A DNA stretch of 64,000 nucleotides from Rhizobium sp. GN54 (GTDB taxonomy: Bacteria > Pseudomonadota > Alphaproteobacteria > Rhizobiales > Rhizobiaceae). Numbering within the stretch: the first letter of the stretch is position 1; each line of letters starts with the position of its first letter. The notes beneath the pieces are model-generated. The model was not told the origin of the DNA. It searched no databases and was given only the letters and a program-made list of their open reading frames with translations. Shown here one piece after another: positions 21,941 through 45,100 of the stretch. The DNA lies in the NCBI RefSeq assembly GCF_021026345.1, contig NZ_JAJNCZ010000005.1, positions 124,001-188,000 on the forward strand. The letters are read 5' to 3'. The position numbers and the translations under genes were made by a program.

Positions 21941-21965
21941 ACGCCGCAAGGAGAAACAGGCCCGA

Positions 21966-29892: not shown

Positions 29893-29899
29893 TGGAGGG

Positions 29900-30376
29900 A
29901 TGACGAGGATGCCCGCCTTCCGCCTATGCGACGTGGTGCTGGACGAGACGATCGGCCGCGCCACGCCGGACGTCGAGCATGAGCGGGCGGTGGCGATCTT
30001 CGACCTGATCGAGGAGAATTCCTTCGAGCCGGTCGGCCACACCGGCGGCCCCTACCGGCTCAACCTGTCGCTGATGGATTCGAAGCTGATCTTCGCCATC
30101 AGCACCGAGGACGGCGGCGCGGTCGCCACCCACATCCTGTCGCTGACGCCTTTCCGGCGGATCGTGAAGGACTATTTCCTGATCTGCGAAAGCTACTATC
30201 AGGCGATCCGCTCGGCCACGCCCAGCCAGATCGAGGCGATCGACATGGGCCGGCGCGGCATCCACAATGACGGTTCGCAGACGCTGATGGACCGGCTCTC
30301 CGGCAAGATCAGGCTCGATTTCGACACCGCGCGGCGGCTCTTCACGCTGGTCTGCGTGCTCTACTGGCGCGGGTGA
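29900..30376 (+). CDS. UPF0262 family protein
   Basis: A 158-residue UPF0262 protein, an alphaproteobacterial family usually encoded right after hisD. Typical sequence includes [36 protein letters not shown] and [19 protein letters not shown]. The ATG at 29900 follows GATGGAGGG and lies 7 bases after hisD. Its stop overlaps the GTG of the next gene. The biochemical role is unknown. Confidence 0.9.
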
Positions 30377-30858
30377 GCGGCATGAGCGCGCTGGCGACCG
30401 ACATGGGGCAGACAACGACGCGAAGCCCCGGCTCGGTGCTATTCATGTGCCGGATGAATGCGGTGCGCTCGCCCATGGCCGAGGCGATCGCCCGGAGCGT
30501 GCTGCCGGCCGGCACCTACGTAGCCTCCGCCGGCATCCGCCCCGGCGAGCGCGATCCCTTCGTCCAGGCGGTGCTGGAGGAGGTGGGGCTGTCGATCGAG
30601 CGCCATCTGCCGCGGTCGCTGGAGGAACTGGAGGACGACTATTTCGACCTGATCGTGACGCTCGCCCCGGAAGCGCACCACGCAGCCCTCGAACTGACCC
30701 GGTCGAGCGCGGTCGAGGTGGTCTACTGGCCGACCCCCGATCCGACTGTCGCCGCGGGCACGCGCGAGCAGATCCTTTCGGCCTATCGCGAGGTCCGCAA
30801 CCACCTGGCGACGCTGATCGAGCGGCGGCTCGGCCCCGGCATATCCGTTTCTTCTTGA
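30373..30858 (+). CDS. low-molecular-weight protein-tyrosine-phosphatase-like protein
   Basis: A 161-residue member of the low-molecular-weight phosphatase/arsenate reductase fold. The P-loop CRMNAVRS fits C-x5-R-S, and a late Asp-Pro pair (PTPDPT) is in the general-acid position. The GTG at 30373 overlaps the upstream stop (GTGA); an ATG three codons later (30382) is equally plausible. It lies in a run of housekeeping genes between UPF0262 and infA. Its substrate is not known, and an arsenate or phosphotyrosine role cannot be decided from sequence. Confidence 0.85.
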
Positions 30859-30997
30859 ATAAACCCGGGCCCTCATACGGGCATGTGAAGAAAGCCGGAT
30901 CATTGGTGTTCACAAAACACCCTCTATTGTGTAGTTTCCGGCAAAATTTCGGCCGGCGGCATCCTGCCTCCCGCCAACGAAGGATCACCACCGCAAT

Positions 30998-31216
30998 ATG
31001 GCAAAAGAAGAAGTCCTTGAATTCCCGGGTGTCGTTACGGAACTGCTGCCGAACGCCACCTTCCGCGTCAAGCTCGAGAACGAGCACGAGATCATCGCGC
31101 ACACGGCCGGCCGCATGCGCAAGAACCGCATCCGCGTGCTCGCCGGCGACAAGGTGCTCGTCGAGATGACGCCCTACGACCTGACCAAGGGTCGCATCAC
31201 CTACCGCTTCAAATAA
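30998..31216 (+). CDS. infA: translation initiation factor IF-1
   Basis: A 72-residue S1/OB-fold protein, the exact length of bacterial IF-1. It has [33 protein letters not shown] and the terminal [11 protein letters not shown]. It binds the ribosomal A site during initiation. The A/T-rich gap before it (30859-30997) probably holds its own promoter. GAAGGAT lies about 13 bases before the ATG. Confidence 0.98.
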
Positions 31217-31266
31217 GCCTGTCCTTCCGGCGCTCCACCGGGCGCGCTCGGCTCCCTCGAGGTTCC

Positions 31267-31887
31267 ATGGAATTCGCCCACAAGCTCATCCTGGCATCCG
31301 GCTCGCCGCGCCGCGTCGAGCTTCTGGCGCAGGTGGGCATCGAGCCCGACCGGCTGATGCCGATGGACATCGACGAGACGCCGAAGAAATCGGAGCATCC
31401 GCGTTCGCTGGCACGACGGCTTTGCACCGGCAAGGCGGAGGCCGCCCTTGCCGCGATCAAGGGCGATCCGGCCGCCGCGGGCAGCTACATCCTCGCCGCC
31501 GACACCGTAGTCGCGGTCGGGCGACGCATCGTGCCGAAATGCGACATGGTCGACGAGGCCGCAAGCGCCCTGCATCTGCTTTCCGGCCGCAGCCACCGCG
31601 TCTTCACCGGCATCTGCCTGATCACCCCGGACAGGAAGGTGCGCCAGCGCATCGTCGATACCAAGGTCCGCTTCAAGCGGCTGTCCGGCCTCGACATCGA
31701 GAGCTATCTCGCCTCCGGCCAGTGGCGCGGCAAGGCCGGCGGCTATGCGATCCAGGGGATCGCCGGCGGCTTCGTCGTCAAGCTGGTGGGTTCCTATACG
31801 AACGTGGTCGGCCTGCCGCTGCAGGAGACGACCTCCCTGCTCTCCGGCGAAGGATACGACGTCCACCGCCGCTGGTCGGAGGGCTGA
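31267..31887 (+). CDS. maf: Maf family nucleotide pyrophosphatase
   Basis: A 206-residue Maf-like protein, a house-cleaning nucleoside triphosphate pyrophosphatase. The N-terminal [15 protein letters not shown] and the central [13 protein letters not shown] (with the conserved Asp) are the family signature, followed by [11 protein letters not shown] and [10 protein letters not shown]. It is co-directional with infA and yacG, the normal rhizobial order. Substrate preference among Maf subfamilies is not assigned. Confidence 0.94.
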
Positions 31888-31891
31888 GGCT

Positions 31892-32098
31892 GTGAGCAAC
31901 GGTACGGACAAGCCGACGGCAAAGGTCGAACCCCTGCGCAAGGCGCACCCCTGCCCCGAATGCGGCCGCCAGTCGGTGCGCGACCACTACCCGTTCTGCT
32001 CGGAGCGCTGCCGCAGCCTCGACCTGAACCGGTGGCTCTCGGGCTCCTACGCCATCCCCGTCAGCGACGACGAGGCGAAGGCAGGCGAGAACGATTGA
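31892..32098 (+). CDS. yacG: DNA gyrase inhibitor / zinc-binding protein YacG
   Basis: A 68-residue YacG protein with a four-cysteine zinc site (CPECG near residue 25, then FCSERCR) followed by [15 protein letters not shown], all diagnostic. E. coli YacG binds GyrB and inhibits gyrase. The GTG at 31892 follows the maf stop by 4 bases, and GAGG lies just upstream. The following 303 bases up to the tRNA hold only the tRNA promoter candidate. Confidence 0.93.
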
Positions 32099-32310
32099 CG
32101 CTGACGGCCCGTCAGCACACATCCCCGAGCCGGCCTCTCCCTCCTGCCGCCACCGCCATCCAGCGGCGCCCGGTCCCGGCGCGGGCGGCCGGAAGCAGGC
32201 TGCATCCTGTCACCAACAATTGCGCAGCCACGTGCGACGATCCGAAAAGCCGAACCTTTTCCGATACTTGAGATCTCGCGCTTTTTCACGTCGAAAATCT
32301 GCCATGGGGG

Positions 32311-32338
32311 CTGGACACGATCGAGCAAGATGCTATAA
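32311..32338 (+). promoter_or_regulatory. promoter candidate for tRNA-Phe
   Basis: CTGGAC at 32311-32316 and CTATAA at 32333-32338 are separated by 16 bases. They match the rhizobial housekeeping consensus (CTTGAC ... CTATAT) at five of six positions each. The mature tRNA begins about 60 bases downstream. Confidence 0.55.
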
Positions 32339-32401
32339 CCCCGCTCGCTTCCGGGGCGAAACCAAACGCCCCACGGGTTTTGCAACGAAACCCAGCCGGA
32401 T

Positions 32402-32477
32402 GCCCGGATAGCTCAGTTGGTAGAGCAGCGGATTGAAAATCCGCGTGTCGGTGGTTCAAATCCGCCTCCGGGCACCA
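32402..32477 (+). tRNA. tRNA-Phe (anticodon GAA), integration site of the adjacent element
   Basis: A complete 76-base tRNA: acceptor GCCCGGA/TCCGGGC, D-arm GCTCAGTTGGTAGAGC, anticodon stem GCGGA/TCCGC with loop TTGAAAA (GAA), T-arm GGTTCAAATCC, and encoded CCA. Everything from the 3' part of the anticodon stem's 5' strand onward (32430-32477) is repeated at 43037-43084. The resident element therefore restores an intact 3' end on the left copy. Confidence 0.97.
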
Positions 32478-32479
32478 TT
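32430..32479. repeat. attL: left 50-bp direct repeat
   Basis: Identical over 50 bases to 43037-43086. It starts with GGATTGAAAATCCGCG in the anticodon arm and ends two bases after the CCA of tRNA-Phe (GCACCATT). Sequences diverge immediately outside (C versus G on the left, C versus T on the right). Confidence 0.95.
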
Positions 32480-32547
32480 CTAAGTCCCTATTATGTTTGC
32501 CTTTTTCCATATCCGCATCAATCCTAATGAATCTGAGTTTGACAGAT

Positions 32548-33642
32548 TTATTCGCCGGGTTTGACAACTTTCGTTTTTCGTTTGTTCAGTTCGGCCTCGA
32601 AATCGGCCACGGCGGCACTTGCTTGACGTGAACGATCGGCACGCCTGGAATAGTGTTTAGCCATCGCCTCGGTCGCATGACCAAGCACGAGCGCGATAGT
32701 TCCGTGATCCTTGCCCATTTCGGCTAGAATCGTTCCCACAGTGTGGCGAAGACCCTTGAGCGTTAGACCAGGCTGCACCGCGCCGCTTTCTTCGAGCTTT
32801 TTCTTCAGCTTGTTCCAATTGGTGCTGAAGCCGTTATAGGTCCACGGTTTGCCGCGAGAGTTCGCGCACAGGGTGATAGCGTCGTGCTTCGGTGCCTGAG
32901 CAAGAGCATTCGCAACCGGCTCAAAAAGCGGCAGGTAAACGGGCTGACCCGTCTTGTGACGACGGGTGTCAATCCCGGCTGCAGAGATCGCCGTTTTCGG
33001 CAGAGCAAGCGCGTCCTGCGGATCGAGCGCATAGAACATCATAATACTGATCGGCAAAGCCATGTGTGCCGGCAATGCAGCGAGTACGGTTTCCCGCTCA
33101 GCGTCTGTCCACGGTCGGTTCGCGTCCGGCAAATCCTTGGGGCGTTCCGCTAGGCTGACCTCTTCAGCCGGATTTCCCTTCGTATAATCGTACTCAAGGC
33201 CCCAATTGAAAACCAACGATATGACCGAGCGGACATAGTTCGCGAATCGGAACCCGCGTTGCATTTCAGCCTTGTCGCGAATCTTGGCAACAAAGCTTCG
33301 CGTGAACCGCTCTAGCGGCGTATCCTCGATTGGCTTGAGCCAGTCAAAAACCTTCTGATAATCGCTCTGTGTGCGCGCCGCACGCTTCTGGAATTTTGGG
33401 CTGGCACGATATTTCTTGATCAGCATGCCAAGCGTGCCGGGTTTCGCTTCCTTCACCTTGTGCAGTTCGTTGATCCGATGCACTTCCATATCGAAAGCAA
33501 GCGTGAACGGTTCGAATTTCGTGCAGTCGATTTTCTCCCGGCTCTTCCGATGATAGGCGCGCCATTCGAACGGCGGCTTTTTATCTCGGAAAATCTGCCA
33601 TCCCTTGTACTTATTCTGGCGCTTTTCCCGGTCCGTTTTCAT
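32548..33642 (-). CDS. tyrosine recombinase / integrase of the satellite
   Basis: A 364-residue integrase pointing at attL. The C-terminal catalytic domain has LKGLRHTVGTILAEMG (box II Arg, with Lys where His is usual), LGHATEAM and the nucleophile in KHYSRRAD. The box I region reads YALDPQDALALPK, so the usual first catalytic Arg (TGxR) is not at its standard place. An N-terminal SAM-like DNA-binding domain covers about residues 70-170. The ATG overlaps the AlpA-like stop by four bases. The adjacent perfect att repeats argue that the enzyme worked at least once. Confidence 0.93.
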   Translation of the reverse strand: MKTDREKRQNKYKGWQIFRDKKPPFEWRAYHRKSREKIDCTKFEPFTLAFDMEVHRINELHKVKEAKPGTLGMLIKKYRASPKFQKRAARTQSDYQKVFDWLKPIEDTPLERFTRSFVAKIRDKAEMQRGFRFANYVRSVISLVFNWGLEYDYTKGNPAEEVSLAERPKDLPDANRPWTDAERETVLAALPAHMALPISIMMFYALDPQDALALPKTAISAAGIDTRRHKTGQPVYLPLFEPVANALAQAPKHDAITLCANSRGKPWTYNGFSTNWNKLKKKLEESGAVQPGLTLKGLRHTVGTILAEMGKDHGTIALVLGHATEAMAKHYSRRADRSRQASAAVADFEAELNKRKTKVVKPGE

Positions 33643-33875
33643 CCGAGCCTTCCAAGAATTTCATCATCACTATCAGGTGAGCCGGCTTTCAGACTGTCAA
33701 GCCAGGCGTCCAGATCGTGCATGTCGTACAATTGGGAGCCGTTGGGCATCGCCACCGGTCGAACGGAGCAGGCACCGGGGAAGCGCTTAGCGGGGATACC
33801 CACGTACTCGCCCGCCTCGCGCAAAGTCAGCATGCGGCGCGGTGCCAATCTCAAATTAAGGGTAGCGCTTGCCAT
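33639..33875 (-). CDS. AlpA/MerR-like small DNA-binding protein, possible excisionase
   Basis: A 78-residue protein with the winged-helix signature of AlpA-like regulators and excisionases: MLTLREAGEYVGIPAKRF for the recognition helix, then a strand and LYDMHDLDAWLDSL. It is translationally coupled to the integrase (4-base overlap), fitting control of excision or directionality. The ATG at 33875 is chosen because upstream in-frame ATGs (33902, 33929) lie inside the operator block. There is no strong ribosome-binding site. Confidence 0.75.
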   Translation of the reverse strand: MASATLNLRLAPRRMLTLREAGEYVGIPAKRFPGACSVRPVAMPNGSQLYDMHDLDAWLDSLKAGSPDSDDEILGRLG

Positions 33876-33900
33876 CGCTATAACGCCTCGAATCTCGAAC

Positions 33901-33948
33901 ATATTGTGTTTTGCAATATAGAGCGCCATATCGTGTTTTGCAATATGG
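33901..33948. promoter_or_regulatory. double operator block A, upstream of alpA-int
   Basis: Two dyad-symmetric sites lie 27 bases centre to centre. ATATTGTGTTTTGCAATAT is at 33901-33919. A second site at 33926-33948 has arms CCATATCG and CAATATGG around the same TGTTTTG centre. The block ends 26 bases before the ATG at 33875. The same 48 bases recur at 37671-37718 with only three differences, at almost the same distance from another leftward small regulator gene. Confidence 0.8.
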
Positions 33949-33977
33949 ATTTGATGCACAGTTGTGGGAAAGAGCGG

Positions 33978-35141
33978 CTATAGCTGGTCGCTCATAATTG
34001 CGCGCGGGTTCCAGCCTTCAACCTGCCGAACCTCGTCAGGATCAAGCACACCCGTTTCGATTGCGATTTTGTGCGCATTCCAGCGCGTCTCGGGGTCGCC
34101 GCGAAGGAAACCCGACAGATCAAGTTCCATTTCATAGGGACCGGACGTCGGGAAAACGGATCGAATAAATTCCGCTTCGATCTTCCGCGCCCACGGTGCC
34201 AAGCAGAACGTCGCGAACCACAAGCCGGCCTGTGCAGCATTTGTGAAGGTGTTGTTTTCGTACGATTGTACGATTGGCGGCGGCACCTGAAACAGCCGGC
34301 ATATCTCGATCACGCCGAACTTACGCGTTTCCAGCAATTCGGCATCTTCCGGGTTGATCTGCGCCGCCTTCCACTTGAGGCCATCTTCTAGAATAGGTGT
34401 GGAACCGGCTTTGCCCGCACCCGAATGGTCCGTCTTCCACGACGTTCGAAGACGGTCGAATGCCTCGCTTGATAGTTTGTTGTCCGTTTCGAGCACACCG
34501 GAAGGTGACGCGCCGTTGTTCAGGAACGCCCGCGCATGTTCGTTCGCCGCTTGGACGCCATTGACGGTATCAGCGGCACGCGACAGGCGGCTACGGCCAA
34601 TCTTGCCGTCATCCGTCCTATCACGCAGGTGCAGCACCTCGCCCTCAAGATAACGACGGGTAATGCCGCGTCCGTCCGAGACGTCATAGGCGAGCCGCCC
34701 GCTCGACAGTTCGGATACCGTCACCATGCCCCACGGAACGTAACGGAAGCCCGAAAGCTGCCCGTTGCCGCTGCGATCGATCACAGCCAGGCCGTTGCCG
34801 GTTAGAAGCGTTGACGCGACGATATGCTCAAGGAAATCCGGCCAAGACATTTGCGGACTGACACCGGCCCGCGCGATCCGGCAGAGCGGATGCGTGGTTG
34901 TCTCGATCCGGTTGCCGTCATTGTCGCGGCGGTAAACCACGACGGGCACATAGGCGAGCGCCGTGGCGATTGCATTGGTGCAGCCGAGAACCGTACTAAG
35001 ATTCTCGGCTGCACGCGCTGACATACCGGCAAAATTGCCAATGCCAGGCGCGAGCGCTGACCAGGATGACGGTGCGAGGGTTTCCCCGGCCGCGCGCTTC
35101 TCATAGCCGGCCAAGCCGGCAATTCGTTCGATCAGGCCCAT
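33978..35141 (-). CDS. HK97-family phage portal protein
   Basis: A 387-residue portal protein, which would form the dodecameric ring at one capsid vertex. It shows typical features: LGCTNAIATALAYVPVVVYRR near residue 60, LLTGNGLAVIDRSG, the VLHLRDRT strand, ARAFLNNGASPSGVL, and LLETRKFGVIEICRLFQVPPPIV near residue 280. The length is a little short for the family but covers clip, wing and stem regions. It starts 10 bases inside the protease gene and follows GAGG. It is the last gene of the capsid module, the reverse of the normal portal-protease-capsid order. Confidence 0.93.
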   Translation of the reverse strand: MGLIERIAGLAGYEKRAAGETLAPSSWSALAPGIGNFAGMSARAAENLSTVLGCTNAIATALAYVPVVVYRRDNDGNRIETTTHPLCRIARAGVSPQMSWPDFLEHIVASTLLTGNGLAVIDRSGNGQLSGFRYVPWGMVTVSELSSGRLAYDVSDGRGITRRYLEGEVLHLRDRTDDGKIGRSRLSRAADTVNGVQAANEHARAFLNNGASPSGVLETDNKLSSEAFDRLRTSWKTDHSGAGKAGSTPILEDGLKWKAAQINPEDAELLETRKFGVIEICRLFQVPPPIVQSYENNTFTNAAQAGLWFATFCLAPWARKIEAEFIRSVFPTSGPYEMELDLSGFLRGDPETRWNAHKIAIETGVLDPDEVRQVEGWNPRAIMSDQL

Positions 35142-35674
35142 TTGTTGGCCTCCGCAAGAATGAGGGCGCGACGGCGGCGCTCGGCATTGGAACCGTTGCG
35201 CAGCGCCCGAAGCGCAATTTCAGTGTCGGGATATGCCGGCCACGCTGAGACGACAGAGATTTCTTTGAGGGCCACAGTTCGCAGCGTACGCCGGTCGCCC
35301 TGCCAAGATTCGCCGCCCTTCGGCACCGTGAAACCGAAAGACATTCCGCCCAGGTCGCCGCGCTCGGCAAGGGCGAGCACGTCACGGCCGGCGCTTGTGT
35401 CGGGAAGGTCGAGCGAGAAGGCCAAGCCCCGGCCATCTTCCGTGAGCCGCAGCGTACCGCTCTTGGTGCGGCCAAGCACGCGTGAAAGGTCGTGATCGAG
35501 CAAGGCGAGGATATCCCCCGCCAATGCCTCGCGAAATGCGCCGGGGGCGATCGTTTCAACGAAACCGCCCGTCCACGCTTCACTGTTGAAGGTGGCGGCA
35601 TACCCTTCGATACGCCGTCCAGTGCTGCGGATTTCAATGAACGATCGCCGTTCGATGTCGCCCCCGGCCTTCAT
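35132..35674 (-). CDS. HK97-family prohead maturation protease
   Basis: A 180-residue prohead protease (peptidase family U35). Visible are GYAATFNSEAWTGGFVETIAPGAF at the N-terminus, ALLDHDLSRVLGRTKSG with the catalytic histidine, GGMSFGFTV with the catalytic serine, and EISVVSAWPAYPDTEIALR. It should cut the capsid protein's N-terminal delta domain. The ATG at 35674 follows GGAG by 8 bases and lies 5 bases after the capsid stop. Confidence 0.93.
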   Translation of the reverse strand: MKAGGDIERRSFIEIRSTGRRIEGYAATFNSEAWTGGFVETIAPGAFREALAGDILALLDHDLSRVLGRTKSGTLRLTEDGRGLAFSLDLPDTSAGRDVLALAERGDLGGMSFGFTVPKGGESWQGDRRTLRTVALKEISVVSAWPAYPDTEIALRALRNGSNAERRRRALILAEANKWA

Positions 35675-35679
35675 CGCGC

Positions 35680-36915
35680 TTACTCCACAGGCGCGGCAAT
35701 CGCCACGCTGGTCGTTTCGACGCCCGTGGCCGACACAAACGCCAGCGGATGGCGCACTGCGCAATCAACGGTCGCCATGGCACGAATGGACACGTTGCCC
35801 TTGGAATAGGCCGTGCTTTCGAACGGGTTCACGAGAATGTCGATTTCAGACCAAATGCCGATAAGCATCTCGGACCAGTCGCCATAGATCAGGCCATGCT
35901 CGTCGCCGCTGCCAAGGGTCGTCGGCACCTGGTTAGAGAACGTCACGGGCTCTTGGTGGAAGATCGGAGCAACACCCACCGGCAGCCGGTTGGCGTCGAG
36001 GCCCAACGAGCAAATCTTCTTGATGAGATTGGTCGTCAGGAAGCTGCGCCGCGCGGTGGCGACGTTGGCAATGTCTGCCTTGGCGATCATTTCCGCCGTC
36101 GTGGTAAAAAGGTCGGTCGTGTACGCCTGCGTGGCGATGCCGGTGGTCGCAAGAACGCCCTTCGGCTGGTTGCTGCCGCCGCCCTGGATGGCCGCACGGT
36201 CGATGGCAAGCGCGAGATTGCGCGCCAGCATCTGACGAAGCAGCATTTCCACATCGGGCGATGCCTGGAGAAGCATATTGCGGGAAAACTCCGAAAGCGC
36301 GCCGGCATGCTTGGGGCTGAGGGTCACGGCGTCGAAGTCGGCATCGTCAGACGACAGCGCCGCATTCTCGGCAACCCATCCCACAGTGGGGCTATCCGTC
36401 TCGCGCGGAATGCTGAGATTGCCCGTAAGGCCATTGAGCACACGAGCACCAAGGCCGCGAACGACGGAAGATGCCGTGAGAGCGGAAATGTACTGGTCGG
36501 GCCGGTGGTCGGTCGGGACCAGTTCTCCACCCGTCGAAGTCGTGAGAACACGCGTCTCGAAAACTTCGGTCGGGATGTAGATGCCTTCAGCGGAACGGCC
36601 GGCACGCTTGGAAAGCTCTGCCTGCACTTCACGTTCAAAGCCGGCATCCACACCCAGGCCGGCAGCGGCCGCGATAGCGCGGGTGACGCGGAAACGGGAA
36701 CGGATTTCCGTGTCCAGCTTCACATCGCCGTTGATCGGCTTGCCTGTTTCGGCCCGGTCGGCAGCATCGATTTTGCGCGCACGTTCCAACTTGTTATCGA
36801 CGGCACGAAGTTCGGTTTCTGCCGCCACGAAGTCATCGTTCTTGTCGGCCTGGTGGGCCTCATTCATGCGGGTCACGATTGCCGCCCGCTGTTCGATCAG
36901 ATCACTGGTTTTCAT
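35680..36915 (-). CDS. HK97-fold major capsid protein with N-terminal scaffold domain
   Basis: A 411-residue capsid protein. Residues 1 to about 100 are charged and helical (KTSDLIEQRAAIVTRMNEA, then coiled-coil-like LRAVDNKLERARKI), fitting the cleavable delta/scaffold domain. The HK97 fold follows with GGELVPTDHRPD, TVGWVAENAALSSDDADFD, the SPKHAGALSEFSRNML E-loop/spine region, AIQGGGSNQPKGVL and the C-terminal GLIYGDWSEMLIGIW. GGAAGGACC precedes the ATG. Size and the adjacent protease argue that it still assembles a prohead. Confidence 0.94.
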   Translation of the reverse strand: MKTSDLIEQRAAIVTRMNEAHQADKNDDFVAAETELRAVDNKLERARKIDAADRAETGKPINGDVKLDTEIRSRFRVTRAIAAAAGLGVDAGFEREVQAELSKRAGRSAEGIYIPTEVFETRVLTTSTGGELVPTDHRPDQYISALTASSVVRGLGARVLNGLTGNLSIPRETDSPTVGWVAENAALSSDDADFDAVTLSPKHAGALSEFSRNMLLQASPDVEMLLRQMLARNLALAIDRAAIQGGGSNQPKGVLATTGIATQAYTTDLFTTTAEMIAKADIANVATARRSFLTTNLIKKICSLGLDANRLPVGVAPIFHQEPVTFSNQVPTTLGSGDEHGLIYGDWSEMLIGIWSEIDILVNPFESTAYSKGNVSIRAMATVDCAVRHPLAFVSATGVETTSVAIAAPVE

Positions 36916-36964
36916 GTGGTTTGGTCCTTCCGGGGTTAAATAAATCTACCTCCTTTTTGCTTCG

Positions 36965-36994
36965 CCGTGCCGGTGGGGAAGGTGACCGGCACGG
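36965..36994. terminator. hairpin in the leader of the capsid gene
   Basis: A perfect 10-bp inverted repeat (CCGTGCCGGT ... ACCGGCACGG, 10-base loop) lies between the 61-residue gene and the capsid gene. It may attenuate or process the message between the regulatory and structural genes. No T-run follows on the minus strand, so simple termination is uncertain. Confidence 0.4.
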
Positions 36995-37019
36995 ATGTTT
37001 CGGATGACTTAGCGCTTGT

Positions 37020-37205
37020 TCAGGTAGCGCGATGAAATGTAGGGAGAGGATATGCGCCTCGCCGCTTCATTTCGTTTTCCGCAAGTTCAGCCATCCCGCG
37101 CGTGACAGTCGCGAAGTAATAAAGCTTGTCCAGCGGCAGATTATCAAGGTTTCCACCCGTCACATACTTGGTGGCTTCCGATAGTTCTTTTTCAATCGTC
37201 GTCAT
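37020..37205 (-). CDS. small hypothetical protein of the satellite
   Basis: A 61-residue protein with a helical N-terminus (TTIEKELSEATKYVTGG) and an acidic/basic helix (RGMAELAENEMKRRG). No family is recognised. The ATG overlaps the stop of the upstream regulator gene by four bases (ATGA), which supports real translation. It precedes the capsid gene by 104 bases. Confidence 0.65.
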   Translation of the reverse strand: MTTIEKELSEATKYVTGGNLDNLPLDKLYYFATVTRGMAELAENEMKRRGAYPLPTFHRAT

Positions 37206-37651
37206 TTTCCGGCCTCGTTTTCGACCTGAGAGGAAATGAATTCACGAAGAAATTTCACATTGTAGGTCGTGACGCCGAAAATGAACGAACCTGAGAACAT
37301 CACTTTGTCCCATTCGGAGAACTCAGGCACCGACGCAGCGACATGCACGGATTTGGCTCCGTTCACATACTCAACAACCGAAATTGCAGGTTCGTCGGGA
37401 TTGCTGCGAGCTTTCCCCGCGACGTCGCACGCGAAATAACCGGCGTCTTTGACTTTGAAACCTCGCTCCAAAAAGGTGCGGAAAAGCCAAAGTGCGAGTA
37501 AATCGTCTATGCCAAACACACGATACCGTCCCCGGATCGTGCCCGGCATGCACGGAAACCGCCCTGCCGCTACGTGCTCATTGAGTCGGAGGGGGTTCAT
37601 TCCCACGATGCGGCATGCCACGTCTGTGGTCACTTCTATCGGATCGGTCAT
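37202..37651 (-). CDS. MerR/AlpA-like regulator of the satellite
   Basis: A 149-residue protein. The N-terminal about 70 residues resemble a winged helix of the MerR/AlpA kind (DVACRIVGMNPLRLNEHV, GRYRVFGIDDLLALWLF). The rest is a mixed domain of unknown fold ending in an FLREFISSQVE helix. The ATG at 37651 is chosen because earlier in-frame ATGs fall in or beside the operator block; 37672 remains possible. The double operator directly upstream suggests autoregulation and control of alpA-int. This is inference. Confidence 0.7.
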   Translation of the reverse strand: MTDPIEVTTDVACRIVGMNPLRLNEHVAAGRFPCMPGTIRGRYRVFGIDDLLALWLFRTFLERGFKVKDAGYFACDVAGKARSNPDEPAISVVEYVNGAKSVHVAASVPEFSEWDKVMFSGSFIFGVTTYNVKFLREFISSQVENEAGK

Positions 37652-37670
37652 CTTTGCACCTACTTCGTCC

Positions 37671-37718
37671 ATATTGTATTTTGCAATATACAGCGCCATA
37701 TCGCGTTTTGCAATATGG
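37671..37718. promoter_or_regulatory. double operator block B, upstream of the satellite regulator
   Basis: ATATTGTATTTTGCAATAT at 37671-37689 and a second dyad at 37696-37718 (arms CCATATCG and CAATATGG) repeat block A at 33901-33948 with 45 of 48 bases identical and the same internal spacing. It ends 20 bases before the ATG at 37651 and also faces the rightward small gene at 37804. Confidence 0.8.
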
Positions 37719-37803
37719 AATGAGCGTCACTGTGAACGCACATGTGGATAATCGGCAGAACCGCAATTTAAGTGCTGTTTAGAACGGAGCGGAGCGCCAC
37801 ACC

Positions 37804-37983
37804 ATGACAGCCACGGTTCAGCAGATACGCAAGGCGATGGCTGATCTTGCAGGCATCATCGAGACGCACCCTAACGGCGAATGCGTGGCCGTGGTTCGAA
37901 CGCCTGGAGGCGAACTTGCATTTAGAGAAGATCGCACAGCGCGCCTCGCGGCGGCAAAAGCCGCCAGTCAAGCGCCGCCTTGA
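37804..37983 (+). CDS. putative 59-residue protein, rightward from operator block B
   Basis: An intact short frame, ATG at 37804 to TGA at 37983. The product begins TATVQQIRKAMADLAGIIE, continues with ECVAVVRTPGGELAFREDRT and ends with a basic/Ala tail. A GGAGCGGAG sequence 13-20 bases upstream is a poor but possible ribosome-binding site. The residue pattern is protein-like (amphipathic helix, then two strands). It converges on and overlaps the next leftward gene by 16 bases. No homologue is recognised. Confidence 0.4.
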   Translation: MTATVQQIRKAMADLAGIIETHPNGECVAVVRTPGGELAFREDRTARLAAAKAASQAPP

Positions 37984-38195
37984 GCCTTGCGCTCATCTAT
38001 GAAGTCTTCAAGCTCGTTGAGCATGGTATCTTCCGAGCTTGGAACGCGGCGGACGCGGCCCAAGGCCGACGCGGCACCCGCCATGAACGCGTCCCGGCAA
38101 ATCCGCATCTCGTCAATGCGCAGCGTTCCGCCGACGCAATTTCTCATGAACTCGATAAAGTCGGCCGTCAGCGGCTCGTAACTCATGTCATTCAC
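37968..38195 (-). CDS. small hypothetical phage-type protein
   Basis: A 75-residue protein starting at a GTG (38195) preceded by AAAGGACC; an ATG at 38186 is the alternative. It has a helical TADFIEFMRNCVGG segment and RICRDAFMAGAASALGRV, a pattern I associate with small proteins in rhizobial prophage early regions, but no function is known. It is divergent from the XRE gene. Confidence 0.65.
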   Translation of the reverse strand: MNDMSYEPLTADFIEFMRNCVGGTLRIDEMRICRDAFMAGAASALGRVRRVPSSEDTMLNELEDFIDERKAQGGA

Positions 38196-38270
38196 GGTGG
38201 CGGTCCTTTCGCGGTTCGTGTATCAACAGAAAATATTGGTAAGCCCCAAGCGCAAAAGCGTCAACATAGA

Positions 38271-38507
38271 ATGTCGATATCGCCCGCTCAATGCCGCGCC
38301 GCGCGGTCACTACTCGAAATCACGCAACCTCATCTGGCCGAAATGGCCGGATTTGGTCTGTCAACGATTGTTGATTTTGAGAAGCAAAGGCGAAAGGTTT
38401 CCGTTGAGGCAGTCGCGGCCATTAAGACCGCCCTGGAAACCGCAGGGGTCATCTTCATTGACCAGAACGGTGCCGGTGCCGGCGTACGTCTTCGCGACAA
38501 ATCCTGA
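38271..38507 (+). CDS. XRE-family helix-turn-helix regulator
   Basis: A 78-residue Cro/CI-like protein consisting of one HTH domain (SPAQCRAARSLLEITQPHL, AEMAGFGLSTIVDFEKQRR) and a short C-terminal strand region ending GVRLRDKS. This short XRE form is common in rhizobial prophages and plasmids. It diverges from the gene at 38195, with a 75-base A/T-rich gap that should hold both promoters. It is a likely repressor for the early genes. No clear ribosome-binding site. Confidence 0.8.
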   Translation: MSISPAQCRAARSLLEITQPHLAEMAGFGLSTIVDFEKQRRKVSVEAVAAIKTALETAGVIFIDQNGAGAGVRLRDKS

Positions 38508-39519
38508 GCGCCGCATAAAACTGCGGGTCATTGCATTTTTATCGAGAATAATTGTTACGGACTCGAAACCAATTGCGTTTCGCAACCGGTGAATTTGCCC
38601 CGACGATGCATCTGCGGAAAAGTGCTTTGGGGGCCGGTCCGCAGCGTTTCAGCCCTGAGCGATTTCCTAGCACCCCGATCCATGATCAATCGATGTCTGA
38701 TGCCCCTCGCCACGACGTTGCCCCAGGACGCGCGTTCTCGGCCCATGGCGTGTCGCTCGTCATCCAACCGCACCGACAGCGCTCCACGACGCGACGGCTA
38801 GCCCGTAGGCGAACGCGCTTCCACATTGCGCTGTAGAGAGCCGGAGGGCGGGTTACACAGCACGATCAATATCGGGTCGCTTATTGCCCACAGTGGTGCG
38901 TGACGACTTGGTGACGAGTTGGTGACGAGTTGCAACGGAGAAATCCATTTGAAATCAATGACGTGACGCGAGTGACGCGTTCCGCTCACATACTTTCATA
39001 CCGGTTCACCACCACCAATATGATTTGCTTTTCCCATCGCATAAGCGTTGGAAAAAGTCGTCACTCTCGTCACGCATAACGAATAATCTAATGAAGACAG
39101 CGTATTAGCCGTGACGACTTACCTTCTCAACTCGTCACCAACTCGTCACCAACTCGTCACCAGTTGGTGACGCTATGAGAAACCGCACTGACAACGACGG
39201 TGACGCAATGGTGTGGCTGAAAAGCCAAAGCCTGGACGCAAGAGGCAACAGATAAAGAAAATTTAATAATCCACGGCCTTCACAACGACTCAAAAGTTGT
39301 TAAGGTGATCTCAACAACTCGGTGTCAAACTGCGTTGACATTTGGGGCGAACATATGTAGAGGCGCGCTTGCGGTGCAGACGCTCCGTCCTATATATGAT
39401 TTCACTTAAGCCTGATGGAACTAAGGTCGAAAGAGGCAGTTTCTTGTCTCCAGACCTAGGACTTGCGGGCTTATTGCATTTGTAGGGTAATAGTGCCTTA
39501 CCAAAACAGGAGAAACAAG
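38508..39519. other. gene-poor region of the satellite carrying the putative origin
   Basis: About 1 kb without a supported gene. Short frames exist at 38552-38836 (+) and 38555-38773 (-), but they are mutually overlapping, lack ribosome-binding sites and have unnatural composition. From 38880 on the sequence becomes repeat-rich (iterons, separate entry) and A/T-rich. 39230-39500 contains further A/T-rich DNA and the presumed promoter of the gene at 39520. Confidence 0.6.
38900..39172. repeat. iteron array, putative replication origin of the satellite
   Basis: Three direct 11-bp units GTGACGASTTG run at 38900, 38911 and 38922. Three units of the same sequence in the opposite orientation (CAACTCGTCAC) run at 39128, 39139 and 39150. 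Single GTGACG/CGTCAC words occur at 38963, 38972, 39059, 39068, 39111 and 39167. About 170 bp of A/T-rich DNA lies between the two triplets. Iterons plus an A/T-rich core beside a primase-helicase gene resemble the P4 ori/crr design. Confidence 0.75.
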
Positions 39520-39744
39520 ATGAGTGAGAAGGACAGGCTGCTTAAGACGCTGTTTGAAACAGCTGATCAGTCACATCTCAACATCAAATTTTTCCGTGGC
39601 TTTTCAGACGAGATTTCCACGGAAGATTTGTGCCGGGAAGCCAATTCCGCCTTCTTTCAGTTTGAAAGCGGAATCGCTGTGACCTCGACTGAATTTGGCG
39701 ATGCTGATCGTACTTCATTTAACGTGAAAGAAATGTTCGCGTAA
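39520..39744 (+). CDS. small acidic hypothetical protein, first of a two-gene unit
   Basis: A 74-residue acidic protein starting MSEKDRLLKTLFETADQS, with a central FFRGFSDEISTEDLCREAN and a strand-rich end (FESGIAVTSTEFGDADRTS). CAGGAGA lies 7 bases before the ATG at 39520, the best ribosome-binding site in the element. No family is recognised. It is followed after 59 bases by the 190-residue gene, in A/T-rich DNA unlike the rest of the window. Confidence 0.65.
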   Translation: MSEKDRLLKTLFETADQSHLNIKFFRGFSDEISTEDLCREANSAFFQFESGIAVTSTEFGDADRTSFNVKEMFA

Positions 39745-39803
39745 GACGTGAATGACGGTTTTTGCATCTAGACTTTTTTCCCGGGGTTGGATAATTCCGG
39801 GAA

Positions 39804-40376
39804 ATGGACATGAATCTCTACGAAAAATTTGCCGGTTACACTGTTCTGCCGATCAAAATTGATTGGGTCAAAGAGCAAGTCAAGGAGGACTGCGAGTTTG
39901 CAGAAATCCTCTTCATACCCGTTCAGATGGATGCTAGTGTCCTGCTAGGCATACACAGGATGTTTTCCAAGAACGTCGGTGGTGTTACAAAGGTCACCCT
40001 TCAGGTTTATTACAACTCAATACTTGACGAGGAGCGTCACGCTGCGCTCAAGCGATTGGTCTGCTGCAAAGAGCTCCTTCACGCTTACGACAGCGAGAAG
40101 CAGACAGCAAAGTCCATGTCTGCGGTGGATCATCTCATTGAAGGAATAGTTGTTCCGCCGTCCTCCGGCATGACGGCGTCCTTGGCTTCGGACCACAATG
40201 GTGGTCTGAGGGCACTAATGGTTCTACTCCCACGTGATGCGCTTGACGTGATCATCCCCGCGCACCACGCCGGCAAGATAAGTGTCGAAGACGTAGCGCT
40301 TCTTGCCGGGATTCCGGAAGCGTATGCGAGGGTTTCCCTCTCCCCCGTCTGGAAGGACTTGGTCGAGAAGCTTTGA
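39804..40376 (+). CDS. hypothetical protein with a degenerate ImmA/IrrE-like layout
   Basis: A 190-residue protein that I cannot assign with certainty. RLVCCKELLHAYD (about residues 85-97) aligns by eye with the HExxH helix of ImmA/IrrE metallopeptidases, with Lys in place of the first His. The C-terminal part, MVLLPRDALDVII followed by ISVEDVALLAGIPEAYARV, resembles the substrate-domain/HTH-like tail of that family. If so, it would be a pseudo-peptidase. It is the rightmost rightward gene, convergent with the primase, in a typical cargo position. ATG at 39804 (second ATG at 39810) with only GGGAA upstream. Confidence 0.6.
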   Translation: MDMNLYEKFAGYTVLPIKIDWVKEQVKEDCEFAEILFIPVQMDASVLLGIHRMFSKNVGGVTKVTLQVYYNSILDEERHAALKRLVCCKELLHAYDSEKQTAKSMSAVDHLIEGIVVPPSSGMTASLASDHNGGLRALMVLLPRDALDVIIPAHHAGKISVEDVALLAGIPEAYARVSLSPVWKDLVEKL

Positions 40377-40433
40377 GGGCGTAAAGCCCTCGTGGTCGAG
40401 CCATCCCCGGTAACTACGTTCGTCGGTGTTCTG

Positions 40434-42809
40434 TCATGGCATTCCTTGCATGACGATGCCGGTAAACATGCGCTCTGCGCGCGTCCTAGTACGCCTGTAG
40501 CCTAGTTGTTCCAACCGATTGCCGAACTGAAGCTGGCCGAGCATGTTGCGAATACCCATAGCCTGCGCCCATCCTTGATAGGTTGAGTACAAGAAACTAA
40601 TCGACACCGTGCCACCTGTGCGGGTCTCGCACCGCTCTTCCACGAATTGCGCCACCTGATCCGCTTCGACCTGCCATTTCCTTTGCGCGGAGACAGACGA
40701 TGCCGGAACGGTGAAGGCATTACGGCTGACGACGCCCGCATAAGCATTGAGTGCATGGTTTAATATGCCGGGCAACTCTGCTTTCAGCTTATCTTTCAGA
40801 CCGGAATCCTGCTCGTGCGGCTCGAATACACGATTGAACGTTATGACCAGGGCACGGCGAAAAAAGGCGTCCGAATAGTCTCGGGTGTGGGGCATGTGAT
40901 TGGTGCCAAACCAGCACGTCGCGAACGGTCGAATTACAAAAGGATCTTTGTTCTTGTGTTCCACGGTGGCCGGCTCACCACTCGTGATCGCCTTCAATTC
41001 GGCGTCCGCGATCGTTTCGCCCTGCTTTAGCTCGGTAATAATATTTGCAAGCTTTTGATCCAGATGGCCGCGCTGGAATTTATTGTCGAAGCTCGCTGGC
41101 TGAACGCCTGCCACGTTCTGTTTGCCTAGCAGGGCCTCCAACGTCGCCAAGAGCACGGATTTGCCATTAGCGCCCGCGCCGATCAGCAGCACAAACTTTT
41201 CGCGGTTCGCGTGGCCCATGAGAGAATAGCCCATCATTTCCAAGACGACCCTAATCTTGTCGTCGCGGTCAGGGTCATCGCGGAAAATATCGAGTAAGAA
41301 TCTCTCGAATAGTGGTGCGGTCGCATCCGGATCGTAAGAAACCGGAATCTGCGTCGTGCGATACTGGTCACGTCGATGTGGATGAAGCACCCACCGCCCG
41401 TCTATAAGTTCCAATTCTCCATTCAAGCAGTTGACGCTTTCCGGCTTTCCCAGGTTAAATTCGTGGGCTGGCTTATGGATATCGTTCTTCAGCACGTCGG
41501 TAACGCCGCTAACTCGTGCAGCCGTTACCGCGTAGTGCTCTGCCGCCAATGTCAACTGCACGCGCTGCTTCAACTCCCGGTCGTCGCATTGCTTCCACAC
41601 GCCCCTGGCGTCAAACTTCCACGTGAACTGTCCGGCATGGATGATGTTCTCGGCACCAATGGACGCCACCGCCTTGCGAGCAAGCTCTAGATGATCCGGC
41701 TCGCCGTCCTTTCCGTCAGCCTGTTTCTTGAGGTCGGCCATTGGTACGTCGGTATTCATACGAATCTGGCGCAATACTGCGGCTTTTTCGACCGGGCCAA
41801 GGGTGGCGGCTTCGCTACATAGCCGCTTGATTGCCGTCACATCGTCAGCCGCAAGGTTGCGCGCATCGTTCATGATGTTGTCAAACGCCCGCGCGCGCGG
41901 CGCGGTCACACCGGCAGGGAGCGTTGGACGATTATAGACGTTGCGAGTGGAGCTAACCGCCTTAGATATGGTGGATGCTCGATAGTCGGCACGTTCCCAC
42001 TTCGCGCGCATAAGCCCGGAACGACGGAAAAGCCGGGCCATACGTACTGCGTTTTTGCCGGTCCAGAACGCCAGCGCATTCGCTAGCGCCTGGTCGGCGC
42101 TGGAGTGATCGAAGTCGCCCCCGGATACTGACGGGTAGCAGCGCGAGAGAACGGCCACATTAGCGGTGAATAGATCAGCAAACGATGCAGCGTCACCGAA
42201 ACGCGCGGCAGCGCCGCCCTTGGACTTCATCGCCAAGGCCAAAAGCTCGTCGTCATCAGTCGGGCCGTTCCAAGCCGGATCGACCGTATCGGAGAGAGCC
42301 ACAATCTCGGCCGGGTCACCCACAGGCACGATTGCCGCTAGGGTATCGGTCCAATCGAGGTCCATGCCGCCGCCGTTGTTCGACGTACCAAGCGCAATGA
42401 ATCTGCCGCTCGTGTAGAACTCGATTTTGAGACCGTTGTTGAGTTCGAACTTCTTCCTGCGCGGGCCGATGGCACCGCAGCGGCCCCATATGTGGATACC
42501 ATTGCCGCTCACGCTGACCTCAGCAAACGCGCCAGGAAACATCGCGAGCAGTTCGAGTGCTCTTTGATCCCACGCCCCCGTGACCGGATCACGAACGCCG
42601 TCAACGTCAATCACAAAATAAGGGTCATCCGCCGTCAGCACGAAGCCGACAGGCAGTCCAGTTGCTGCAGCTTCGTCATGCGTCAGCCAATTCGCTGGCT
42701 TTAAATGATCGATCGGATTGCCCGTGCGGGCATCGGTCGGGACCTTCCTAGGCTTTGCACCAAGCTGCGGAACCGAGTGCCAGTTGATCCATTGACGCTC
42801 GTGCATCAT
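40434..42809 (-). CDS. primase-polymerase / SF3 helicase replication protein
   Basis: A 791-residue replication protein. Residues about 30-180 resemble an archaeo-eukaryotic primase-polymerase core (YFVIDVDGVRDP metal site, SVSGNGIHIWG, then EFYTSGRFIALGT). The C-terminal third is a D5/P4-type superfamily 3 helicase with Walker A GAGANGKS (about residue 545), ANIITEL as Walker B, and CWFGTNHMPHTRDYSDAFFRR as motif C/sensor. ATG 42809 is preferred over 42875; a second ATG directly follows. It would initiate replication at the nearby iterons. Confidence 0.92.
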   Translation of the reverse strand: MMHERQWINWHSVPQLGAKPRKVPTDARTGNPIDHLKPANWLTHDEAAATGLPVGFVLTADDPYFVIDVDGVRDPVTGAWDQRALELLAMFPGAFAEVSVSGNGIHIWGRCGAIGPRRKKFELNNGLKIEFYTSGRFIALGTSNNGGGMDLDWTDTLAAIVPVGDPAEIVALSDTVDPAWNGPTDDDELLALAMKSKGGAAARFGDAASFADLFTANVAVLSRCYPSVSGGDFDHSSADQALANALAFWTGKNAVRMARLFRRSGLMRAKWERADYRASTISKAVSSTRNVYNRPTLPAGVTAPRARAFDNIMNDARNLAADDVTAIKRLCSEAATLGPVEKAAVLRQIRMNTDVPMADLKKQADGKDGEPDHLELARKAVASIGAENIIHAGQFTWKFDARGVWKQCDDRELKQRVQLTLAAEHYAVTAARVSGVTDVLKNDIHKPAHEFNLGKPESVNCLNGELELIDGRWVLHPHRRDQYRTTQIPVSYDPDATAPLFERFLLDIFRDDPDRDDKIRVVLEMMGYSLMGHANREKFVLLIGAGANGKSVLLATLEALLGKQNVAGVQPASFDNKFQRGHLDQKLANIITELKQGETIADAELKAITSGEPATVEHKNKDPFVIRPFATCWFGTNHMPHTRDYSDAFFRRALVITFNRVFEPHEQDSGLKDKLKAELPGILNHALNAYAGVVSRNAFTVPASSVSAQRKWQVEADQVAQFVEERCETRTGGTVSISFLYSTYQGWAQAMGIRNMLGQLQFGNRLEQLGYRRTRTRAERMFTGIVMQGMP

Positions 42810-42946
42810 ATCGCACCGCCGATCCTTGCCAGGCGCGACGTATGTGTGGTATTCAGATACTCGATATCGCCACAATGGTATCCCGTTTTGCGACCGCTCC
42901 CGATGCCACTCGGGGCGGTCGTTTGCGTTTCAGGTGGTCCATCGCG

Positions 42947-42996
42947 ATTTGACAAAACCGGCGTAAGTATTTGTTTTTCTGGTGCGGGTTTGACAG
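42947..42996. other. TTTGACA repeats near attR, possible integrase arm sites
   Basis: ATTTGACAA at 42947-42955 and GTTTGACAG at 42988-42996 lie 41-90 bases left of attR. Matching words GTTTGACAG (32537-32545) and GTTTGACAA (32559-32567) lie 58-88 bases right of attL, all in the same orientation. Such paired short direct repeats inside both ends are typical of integrase arm-type or excisionase sites. Confidence 0.45.
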
Positions 42997-43036
42997 AATT
43001 TCCGTCAGAAGCTATTGAACAACCACAAATGGCACG

Positions 43037-43086
43037 GGATTGAAAATCCGCGTGTCGGTGGTTCAAATCCGCCTCCGGGCACCATT
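43037..43086. repeat. attR: right 50-bp direct repeat (3' fragment of tRNA-Phe)
   Basis: Identical to 32430-32479. It contains the anticodon arm, variable loop, T-arm and acceptor 3' strand with CCA but no 5' half, so it is not a functional tRNA. It marks the right end of the element. Confidence 0.95.
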
Positions 43087-43276
43087 TTCAGGCTCTTTCT
43101 CCCATCATCTGCATCGACCATCCGCCCGAAATTCCAGCGCGTATCGGTCAACGCGGGCACTCACTTTTCGGCCTGCAATCACGCACCCTTAAGGGTTGCA
43201 GATGGTCGGTTGCGTGCCTACAGTCCCGCACCGTGCGGGCCCTGCTTCGGCCTGCGACGATGGCCAGGAGAAGGGA

Positions 43277-44722
43277 ATGACCATGGCAGCCGAAGTCTAC
43301 GTCGTAACGTCAGCCAGAAAGCTGATCGCAATCAACACCCAGACACTCAAGGCGCGCGAGGTGGGAGACACCGGCGTCGTGATGACCGACGTGGCTTTCG
43401 CACCGGACGGAGAACTCTACGCAATTTCGTTCGACACCCTCTATCGCCTTGACCGCGAGACTGGCGCGACGCTCGAAGCTCACCGCCTCGGCATCTACAG
43501 CGCGAACGCCTTCGAAATCGGTGCGGACGGCAAAGCCTACATCGCCTCGAACACCGATGGCGGGCTCTACAGCGTGGACCTCAAGAGCGGCGGCACGGCG
43601 CTGATCGGCAACTATTCCTCGAGCATGGCATCGTCCGGGGACCTCGCCTTCTATGACGGCAAGTTGTACCTGACCACGTCGAACAAGAAGATCCTCAGCC
43701 TCGATCCCGAAACCGGAAAGGCGTTGAGCACGGTCTCGATCTCCGTCGACAGGATGTACGGCCTGGAGCAGAGCGGCTCCACGCTCTACGGCTTCGCCAA
43801 CAACACCTTCTACTCGGTCGATCCAAAGACCGGAAAGCTCGTCACGATGAGTAAGGTCGACAGCCTCGGCGAGTTCATGGGGGCTGCCAGCCGCCAGTTT
43901 TCCGACCCCGACGACGGCGGATATAAGCTGACCGGCACCAAGGGCCAGGACTGGCTGTTCGGCAACAAGGGCGCCGACCTTCTGTACGGCCGCGGCGGCG
44001 ACGATTTTCTTTACGGCGACGCCGGCAAGGACCGTCTCGAAGGGGAAGGCGGAGCGGATGTGCTCGACGGCGGCAAGGGCGCGGACCGCATGTATGGCGG
44101 CAAGGGCAACGATACCTACATCGTCGACAACAAGGGCGACAAGGTGATCGAGAAGGCCGGCGAGGGCACCGATTTCGTCAAGGCTTCCATCAGCTACAAA
44201 CTGACTGACAATGTCGAAAAGCTGATCCTGACCGGATCGGCAAGCCTCAACGGCACCGGCAACGGCCTCGCCAACGCGATCACCGGCAATTCCGGCAAGA
44301 ACACCCTGAGCGGCGGCAGCGGAAACGACACGCTCAAGGGCAAGTCGGGCGCCGACACCCTGATCGGCGGCAAGGGCGCCGACAAGCTCTACGGCGGATC
44401 GGGCGCCGACACCTTTGTCTTCAAGTCGATCAAGGACAGCACCGTCTCGGGTTCGGGCCGCGACACGATCTACGACTTCTCCCGCAAGCAGGACGACACG
44501 ATCGACCTCAAAGCGATCGACGCGAACACGAAGTCCAGCGGGGACCAGGCGTTCAAGTTCATCGGCAAGGAGAAATTCCACAAGAAGGCAGGCGAACTGC
44601 GCTTTGAAAAGGACGGTGGTGACACGTTCATCTATGGCGACGTCAACGGCGATGCCAAGGCGGACTTCGCGATCAAGCTGGACCTGTCGCTGACGCTGAA
44701 CAAGTCCGACTTCATTCTCTGA
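43277..44722 (+). CDS. RTX-type calcium-binding protein with N-terminal beta-propeller-like region
   Basis: A 481-residue protein without a Sec signal. The first about 215 residues contain repeated short strand modules (DVAFAPDGELYAIS, DLAFYDGKLYLTTS, LEQSGSTLYGFANN) suggesting a quinoprotein/WD-like propeller. Then come glycine-aspartate nonapeptides (GGDDFLYGDAG, GGKGNDTYIVDN, GGSGADTFVF), which bind Ca2+. The C-terminus ends in hydrophobic DLSLTLNKSDFIL, usual for type I secretion substrates. AGGAGAAGGG precedes the ATG at 43277. It is the first gene right of attR. Its secretion apparatus is not in the window. Confidence 0.85.
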   Translation: MTMAAEVYVVTSARKLIAINTQTLKAREVGDTGVVMTDVAFAPDGELYAISFDTLYRLDRETGATLEAHRLGIYSANAFEIGADGKAYIASNTDGGLYSVDLKSGGTALIGNYSSSMASSGDLAFYDGKLYLTTSNKKILSLDPETGKALSTVSISVDRMYGLEQSGSTLYGFANNTFYSVDPKTGKLVTMSKVDSLGEFMGAASRQFSDPDDGGYKLTGTKGQDWLFGNKGADLLYGRGGDDFLYGDAGKDRLEGEGGADVLDGGKGADRMYGGKGNDTYIVDNKGDKVIEKAGEGTDFVKASISYKLTDNVEKLILTGSASLNGTGNGLANAITGNSGKNTLSGGSGNDTLKGKSGADTLIGGKGADKLYGGSGADTFVFKSIKDSTVSGSGRDTIYDFSRKQDDTIDLKAIDANTKSSGDQAFKFIGKEKFHKKAGELRFEKDGGDTFIYGDVNGDAKADFAIKLDLSLTLNKSDFIL

Positions 44723-44902
44723 AGCCGGACCGGGTCCCCCGCTGCGGGCCGTCGGCAATGCGGCCCGCGACACGGCTCAGTTGGACCGTCACGCACATGT
44801 GAGCCTTCGCGGCAGTCCCCTGCGGAACAAAAAGCGGTTCTTGAACGTCTTATCGAAAGGTGCTTGTCACTGCACCTGCTCGGATTGGAGACCGAGCCAA
44901 TT

Positions 44903-44929
44903 CCGGCGGGTCCGCCCGCCGGCTTTTTT
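44903..44929 (+). terminator. Rho-independent terminator downstream of the RTX gene
   Basis: CCGGCGGG and CCCGCCGG form an 8-bp G+C-only stem with a 4-base loop, followed by C and six T. It lies 180 bases after the RTX stop. The spacing leaves room for a separate short transcript, but no promoter is clear. The remainder of 44723-45100 shows no gene. Confidence 0.75.
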
Positions 44930-45100
44930 ATGCCAAGCGCCCGAAAATCACACCGGGATACGGCCCGAAAGCCCGGTCGTTCGACGCTATTGGCGGCCGG
45001 ATGGGGTGGAGAACGCCCATCGCCGGGCGGGGTTCCAAGCCCACCAGGAGAGGCTCGACCCCTTCGTAGCGCCGTTGCCCGGCCCCCTCCCCTCTTCGCC

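Follow-up and report, generated by a model that had tools for sequence, protein, structure and literature searches.

A terminase-less, capsid-encoding island at tRNA-Phe in Rhizobium sp. GN54 and its candidate packaging site

Capsid-forming phage-inducible islands (cf-PICIs) are defined, in the accessible text of PMC10690885, by a gene set that includes terminase subunits, an HNH endonuclease and head-tail connectors, while they depend on a helper for tails. The same text calls them widely distributed across Bacteria, a distribution list in the available part of PMC10803314 omits Alphaproteobacteria, and the AlpA regulator is given as a cf-PICI signature in an excerpt of PMC10448857. That excerpt also reports 224 putative E. 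coli satellites which encode a capsid without a terminase, and it states that the HNH gene of HK97 precedes the terminase and cos and assists cos cutting. In addition, some SaPIs, as well as P4, use the terminase of the helper via cos sites of their own (PMC10690885, accessible text). PLE of Vibrio cholerae, according to the portion of PMC10945586 available, remodels stolen capsids and, according to that of PMC12987554, has its own tape measure, which makes chimeric tails; Extended Data Fig. 10 of the latter source indicates that some cf-PICIs have tmp as well.

The island described here was found in a window of 64,000 nucleotides, that is, the whole stretch of DNA that was analysed (contig NZ_JAJNCZ010000005.1, positions 124,001 to 188,000), to which all coordinates refer unless a locus is named. 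Like cf-PICIs, it has a capsid, a protease, a portal, an integrase, att sites and a P4-type primase, and no tail genes, but it differs from them in having no recognisable terminase, HNH or connectors. The preliminary description had placed it among the cf-PICIs; since the published definition needs all three of these, that placement does not hold and the island is called here a terminase-less variant, whereas its relatives with a terminase come much closer to the cf-PICI pattern. The E. coli capsid satellites, as far as the excerpt of PMC10448857 describes them, resemble it in adjoining tRNAs and in lacking terminase and connectors, and they encode tape-measure proteins, as the siblings of the island do; neither protease nor Pri-Rep is present in them, and they are linked to RepA_N, whereas the window has an S78 protease, a portal and a P4-type primase. 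With P4 the island shares the P4-family primase domain, and like P4-like satellites and cos-SaPIs it would use the helper terminase through a cos site of its own, here a candidate; those elements remodel helper capsids, while this one encodes its own capsid, protease and portal. PLE, with its own tape measure (PMC12987554, available portion), is comparable to the siblings of the island, the window itself having none. On balance, we favour the reading that the island is a satellite which derives from a tail-less, cf-PICI-like alphaproteobacterial island, makes its own procapsid and relies on a helper for terminase, neck and tail.

The island spans 32430-43086 (about 10.6 kb) between two 50-bp repeats at tRNA-Phe, which are the only two copies in the whole window and are exact, as the preliminary description had stated (Table 1). 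Its GC content in 1-kb steps is 46-63%, against 62-72% in the leftward flank. In the empty-site comparison, for which six other genomes of the genus were read together with its own, the left flank with tRNA-Phe was present in 7 of 7, and in two of the six others (G532 and G645) the left and right flanks are joined via a single 50-bp copy, so that the occupied site could be set beside an empty one as had been envisaged. The other four have one 50-bp copy at tRNA-Phe with a differing right neighbourhood, and no island-family gene was found in the approximately 18 kb read there. Given these single-copy sites, the island is missing at tRNA-Phe in the six other genomes and its integration through the 50-bp core is, judging from the junctions, site-specific. 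No match to the island was found in plasmid records. The right neighbour gene (43196-44722) carries glycine- and aspartate-rich tandem repeats with a 27-nt spacing, which we take to be an RTX-like motif.

Table 1. Features of the island and their positions in the window
Feature	Position	Strand	Remarks
Left 50-bp attachment repeat	32430..32479	+	Overlaps the 3' end of tRNA-Phe 32402-32477
Tyrosine integrase	32548..33642	-	PF00589 4e-10
Xis-like protein, 78 aa	33639..33875	-	Function inferred from place and conservation beside int
55-nt repeat with ATATTG-N7-CAATAT dyad	33895..33949		Upstream of xis-int; operator candidate
Portal, HK97 type	33978..35141	-	PF04860 4e-91; TIGR01537
Head maturation protease, S78	35132..35674	-	PF04586 8e-41
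Major capsid protein, HK97 type	35680..36915	-	PF05065 1e-34; TIGR01554
61-aa protein, function unassigned	37020..37205	-	Also in L116
MerR-like protein	37202..37651	-	Weak PF13411 match (0.008), under cut-off
Second 55-nt dyad repeat, 91% identical	37665..37719		Upstream of merR-head genes
Helix-turn-helix protein, 77 aa, repressor-like	38274..38507	+	
Candidate packaging (cos-like) block	38591..38667	-	Core 38635-38665
Origin candidate	38899..39172		Inverted sets of 11-nt iterons (GGTGACGAGTT) flanking an AT-richer stretch
74-aa protein, function unassigned	39520..39744	+	No PADLOC or NCBIfam match
190-aa protein, cargo candidate	39804..40376	+	No family above cut-off
Primase/SF3 helicase, P4 type	40434..42875	-	D5_N, DUF5906, NrS-1 HBD; TIGR01613 'P4 family' 4e-64
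Right 50-bp attachment repeat	43037..43086	+	Exact repeat of the left copy

In the direction of transcription, the minus strand carries the primase/helicase, the MerR-like gene, the 61-aa protein, capsid, S78 protease, portal, the xis-like gene and the integrase, while the helix-turn-helix, 74-aa and 190-aa proteins are encoded on the plus strand. The usual phage order is the reverse of this capsid-protease-portal succession. The integrase, primase/helicase, HK97-type capsid, protease and portal named beforehand were all recovered through Pfam or NCBIfam matches, and their five reading frames are open, in line with the earlier remark that the key frames are intact. A structure prediction of the capsid gave no usable model (mean pLDDT 41). 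The origin candidate contains 56% AT, against 44% for the island.

The absence of recognisable terminase, connector, tail and lysis genes, also noted earlier, was borne out by several searches. No match to HMMs built from relatives for TerL, HNH, connectors and tape measure was obtained (E 1e-4) among all stop-to-stop frames of at least 50 aa in 29001-46500, the relatives' HTC/HTA models serving for the head-tail connectors and the small terminase having no search model of its own; nor did tblastn of 41 family TerLs and three tape-measure proteins match the window (E 0.01). Neither tail nor lysis genes were recognisable in the island, whether by the relatives' HMMs or by a whole Pfam and PHROGs scan which took in ten island ORFs, the small ORFs being compared with PADLOC and NCBIfam as well. 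With the complete Pfam and PHROGs collections applied to just these ten ORFs, the island may still encode a terminase of an unfamiliar kind.

Relatives of the island proved to be numerous. Among 397 genomes of the host's order, 12 (its own included) matched the capsid at E 1e-20, and of the ten capsid-matched regions that were fetched seven (L018-L024) contain capsid, protease, portal and integrase in the window order, five of these seven also showing a tRNA close to the integrase. Scanning with a protease alignment gave 237 stretches in genome contigs, of which 147 were confirmed, and at least 551 confirmed ones in viral contigs (551 of 600 among the matches listed). With 80 loci kept from each protease scan, the gene census covered 168 sources (the window, 160 scan loci and the seven from the order search), in which the portal was found in 164, the capsid in 153, the protease in 142, the integrase in 140, a TerL cluster in 127 and an HNH cluster in 94. 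The usual order is replication gene, HNH, TerL, regulator, capsid, protease, portal, optional connectors and integrase. From the replication gene (or HNH) to the integrase, 29 terminase-bearing members measure 8.6-11.4 kb; contrary to the earlier suggestion of an even smaller relative of the cf-PICIs, the island is thus not notably smaller than they are. A PHROGs scan of 108 unlabelled ORFs of these 29 members matched nine families, the sole tail label being 'tail fiber' (2 of 108); unlike a complete tailed prophage, the island is without recognisable terminase, tail or lysis genes, and its relatives are nearly tail-less too. The relatives are mostly alphaproteobacterial, with a few others (e.g., Desulfovibrio, Salinisphaera and a Clostridia bin), and we read them as compact (about 10 kb), tail-less, cf-PICI-like islands. 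Many cf-PICI-like islands of Alphaproteobacteria came to light in this way. The earlier view of an integrated, capsid-encoding, satellite-like island rather than a plain decayed prophage was upheld: in the loci examined, these head genes are found in tail-less islands of similarly small size, and a full prophage with terminase and tail genes around them was not seen.

A tree of protease plus portal was built with 151 rows (168 loci of the right gene order minus 17 identical), of which 115 have TerL, 13 lack it and 23 are cut by contig ends. Here lacking TerL means no match to the family TerL model, and L058, L072, L079, L084, L103 and L106 were left out of the check for other TerL types. Nested among members with a terminase is a clade without one, made up of the window, L116 and L037 (SH-aLRT 99); a second terminase-less group (99) unites L018, L209, L221 and the cut row L212, and the presence or absence of TerL changes at least 8 times on the tree. 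L116 is the closest whole-element sibling. Between it and the window, dN/dS is 0.12 for the capsid, 0.13 for the portal, 0.17 for the protease, 0.08 for the integrase and 0.13 for the primase, ratios which demonstrate, for this pair of sequences, purifying selection on capsid, protease and portal. The window integrase is 82-85% identical to those of L116 and L037, the latter being an island of Rhizobium sp. Root274 with an identical 50-bp core and maf beside it. The L037 capsid (L037:8778-10001, compared with 35680-36915) is only 37% identical to that of the window, whereas protease and portal reach 76-78%, which points to an exchange of head parts within the satellite lineage. A distant head-encoding element, L333 (IMGVR_UViG_3300048856_000060), is also without TerL or HNH.

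The candidate packaging site, located by the TerL start in terminase-bearing relatives, is new in this analysis. Between the window and L116 the block 38591-38667 differs at 11 of 77 sites, whereas at synonymous sites int, capsid, portal and protease have diverged by 53-63%; read in the HNH frame, 2 of the changes are synonymous and 9 are not, so that the block is, on this comparison, conserved as DNA rather than as protein. Its core pattern (RAAATCGCTCAGRGCTGR, about 9 nt, GACCG) was searched from 400 nt ahead of the TerL frame to 150 nt into it, and occurs there with up to 3 mismatches in 68 of 109 distinct terminase-bearing loci, against 0 of 109 shuffles even at up to 4 mismatches; its being missing from the remaining 41 at up to 3 mismatches counts against the reading we favour. 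With up to 4 mismatches the core lies within HNH, in one phase, in 56 of 74 loci (in 12 others it falls past the HNH frame, and in 6 it has a different phase or spans the HNH stop), and part of the conservation there may therefore be coding. The wobble A of an AAA codon and the wobble T of a GCT codon are invariant in 68 of 68 core loci, themselves selected at up to 3 mismatches, as against a usage of 24% for AAA and 11% for GCT in TerL genes.

The exact core pattern occurs once in the window, where none is expected, and in 25 viral contigs, all 25 of which carry head genes of the island's family; 23 of them have TerL, and the two without it are L116 and L333 (core at 8051-8080 in the latter). 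The right half of the block (GACCGGCCCCC..GCACTTTT) sets the window, L116 and L037 apart, with a similar one in L333; its pattern was found once in the own genome and, in viral contigs, only in L229 (=L037) and L338 (=L116). In L037 the left core has diverged, and the genome that carries L037 has no match to a relaxed core pattern, which also counts against the favoured reading. This relaxed pattern, which is too loose, matched 91 stretches. Counted by locus, duplicates included, among the 80 matches listed, 54 are beside TerL in family members, 26 have no head gene (one is a window fragment and many are a recurrent stretch of larger phages), and 6 have head genes without an adjacent TerL, namely the window, L116 (two ids), L333, L375 and L418, the contigs of the last two stopping at HNH. 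A noncoding candidate packaging site apparently persists, then, in the terminase-less window, L116 and L333, and it could be used as a marker for finding such elements. In a limited survey of the literature, no paper was found on capsid islands of Alphaproteobacteria that lack a terminase and have a site of this kind.

In L116 a tape-measure gene begins about 380 nt past the block, in the TerL slot. Tape-measure genes were located at L037:5799-7817, L116:4357-6339, L018:5285-7717, L201:3316-5166, L203:3765-6002, L308:6096-8510, L311:7274-9250 and L316:8919-11111, the last five loci being islands with a related xis-int, four of which (L203, L308, L311 and L316) adjoin tRNA-Phe. The best PHROG matches of all these proteins fall in four families, and in most of these small islands no other tail genes were seen. 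Since L308 and L203 have TerL, tape-measure-bearing islands are not all terminase-less; the window itself is without the tape-measure gene of its siblings. This gene, together with the candidate packaging site and the iteron-flanked origin candidate, goes beyond what the preliminary description contained. Relatives of these tape-measure proteins (53-67%) were also found in five contigs of 45-49 kb, which may be helper-type phages.

No helper is identified among phage records, own prophages and 394 genomes of the host's taxonomic family. The exact core has no match in phage records at blastn level, and the only one of the 394 genomes in which it occurs is the island's own, where no second copy was found. 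Moreover, in 17 stretches (own prophages, helper-type phages and tRNA-Phe islands) the site scores no better than in shuffles, and the candidate block is in none of the own-prophage or helper-type phage stretches that were fetched. The own genome has two TerL_ATPase matches, on C7 and C23. The latter belongs to what we read as a siphophage-type prophage cut at the contig end; the former to an element of about 15 kb (L030, about 7601-23077), perhaps a mini-prophage or a further satellite, that carries integrase, tape measure, TerL, connectors, capsid, protease and portal. On C1 (L028-L029, about 605-620 kb) a compact portal-protease-capsid-connector cluster is followed by long tail-like ORFs; no integrase was found in that stretch, and in our reading it resembles a gene transfer agent cluster.

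Under the favoured reading, induction by a helper phage would lead the island to excise, to replicate from the iteron-flanked origin and to build its own HK97-type procapsid. The helper terminase would recognise the block, cut it in cos fashion and fill the satellite head via the satellite portal, and the helper neck and tail would finish the particle. The lineage would have shifted from packing its own head by itself to a borrowed motor, which would separate two functions joined in cf-PICIs, the making and the filling of the shell. With the packing motor lost and its site apparently kept, the island probably depends on another virus for filling, tail and spread. Alternatively, it could be a cf-PICI-like island stripped of its packaging genes and immobile, with its head genes in decay and the site left over from the HNH-TerL junction. 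The missing terminase, HNH and connectors, the lack of even the siblings' tape-measure gene and the failure to find a helper all agree with this; we consider it unlikely, though to be taken seriously, since head-gene dN/dS is low between two elements both without terminase, the block has changed less than synonymous sites have, the named frames are all open and terminase-less elements arise more than once on the tree. If the terminase losses were recent and independent, however, dN/dS would be no argument against decay.

The exact site was found only in the island's own family (25 viral contigs with these head genes, TerL being present in 23), and phage records gave no match; this would also fit a satellite of a satellite, in which the terminase of a terminase-bearing sibling in the same cell would pack the island's DNA into the head made by the island itself. 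This appears quite unlikely, since there is no second core in the own genome and none in the others of the 394, and the right half of the block is unlike that of terminase-bearing members. A precedent exists for a further possibility, namely that the head proteins form no separate head and interfere with or remodel the helper capsid: the Ccm of SaPIbov5 is a capsid homologue which redirects the shape of the helper capsid (PMC8569155, in the part available). Here, portal and protease are retained alongside the capsid under selection, as expected of a complete procapsid, and known phage capsids are only distantly similar, with identities under 60% in all 83 records, which makes such a role very improbable. 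As for an origin by deletion from a full tailed prophage, the HK97-type head genes are indeed related to phage ones, but relatives have the same compact order beside an integrase, the att ends are exact and the 20 viral loci obtained in the window-capsid scan are all on contigs of 4-17 kb, so that hardly any weight is left to it. Prophage remnant and gene transfer agent were both rejected for the island in view of its integrase, att sites, primase and compact relatives.

Regarding the remaining genes, the paired 55-nt dyad repeats before two operons are probably a shared operator. The MerR-like gene is kept ahead of the capsid in 14 loci, and the 78-aa xis-like protein has no Pfam, PADLOC or NCBIfam match. 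The 190-aa protein has distant relatives in 3 of 296 other genomes of the host's taxonomic family; it contains a KELLH stretch, which reads KELIH in its relatives L429 and L430, and it might be a remote metalloprotease relative.
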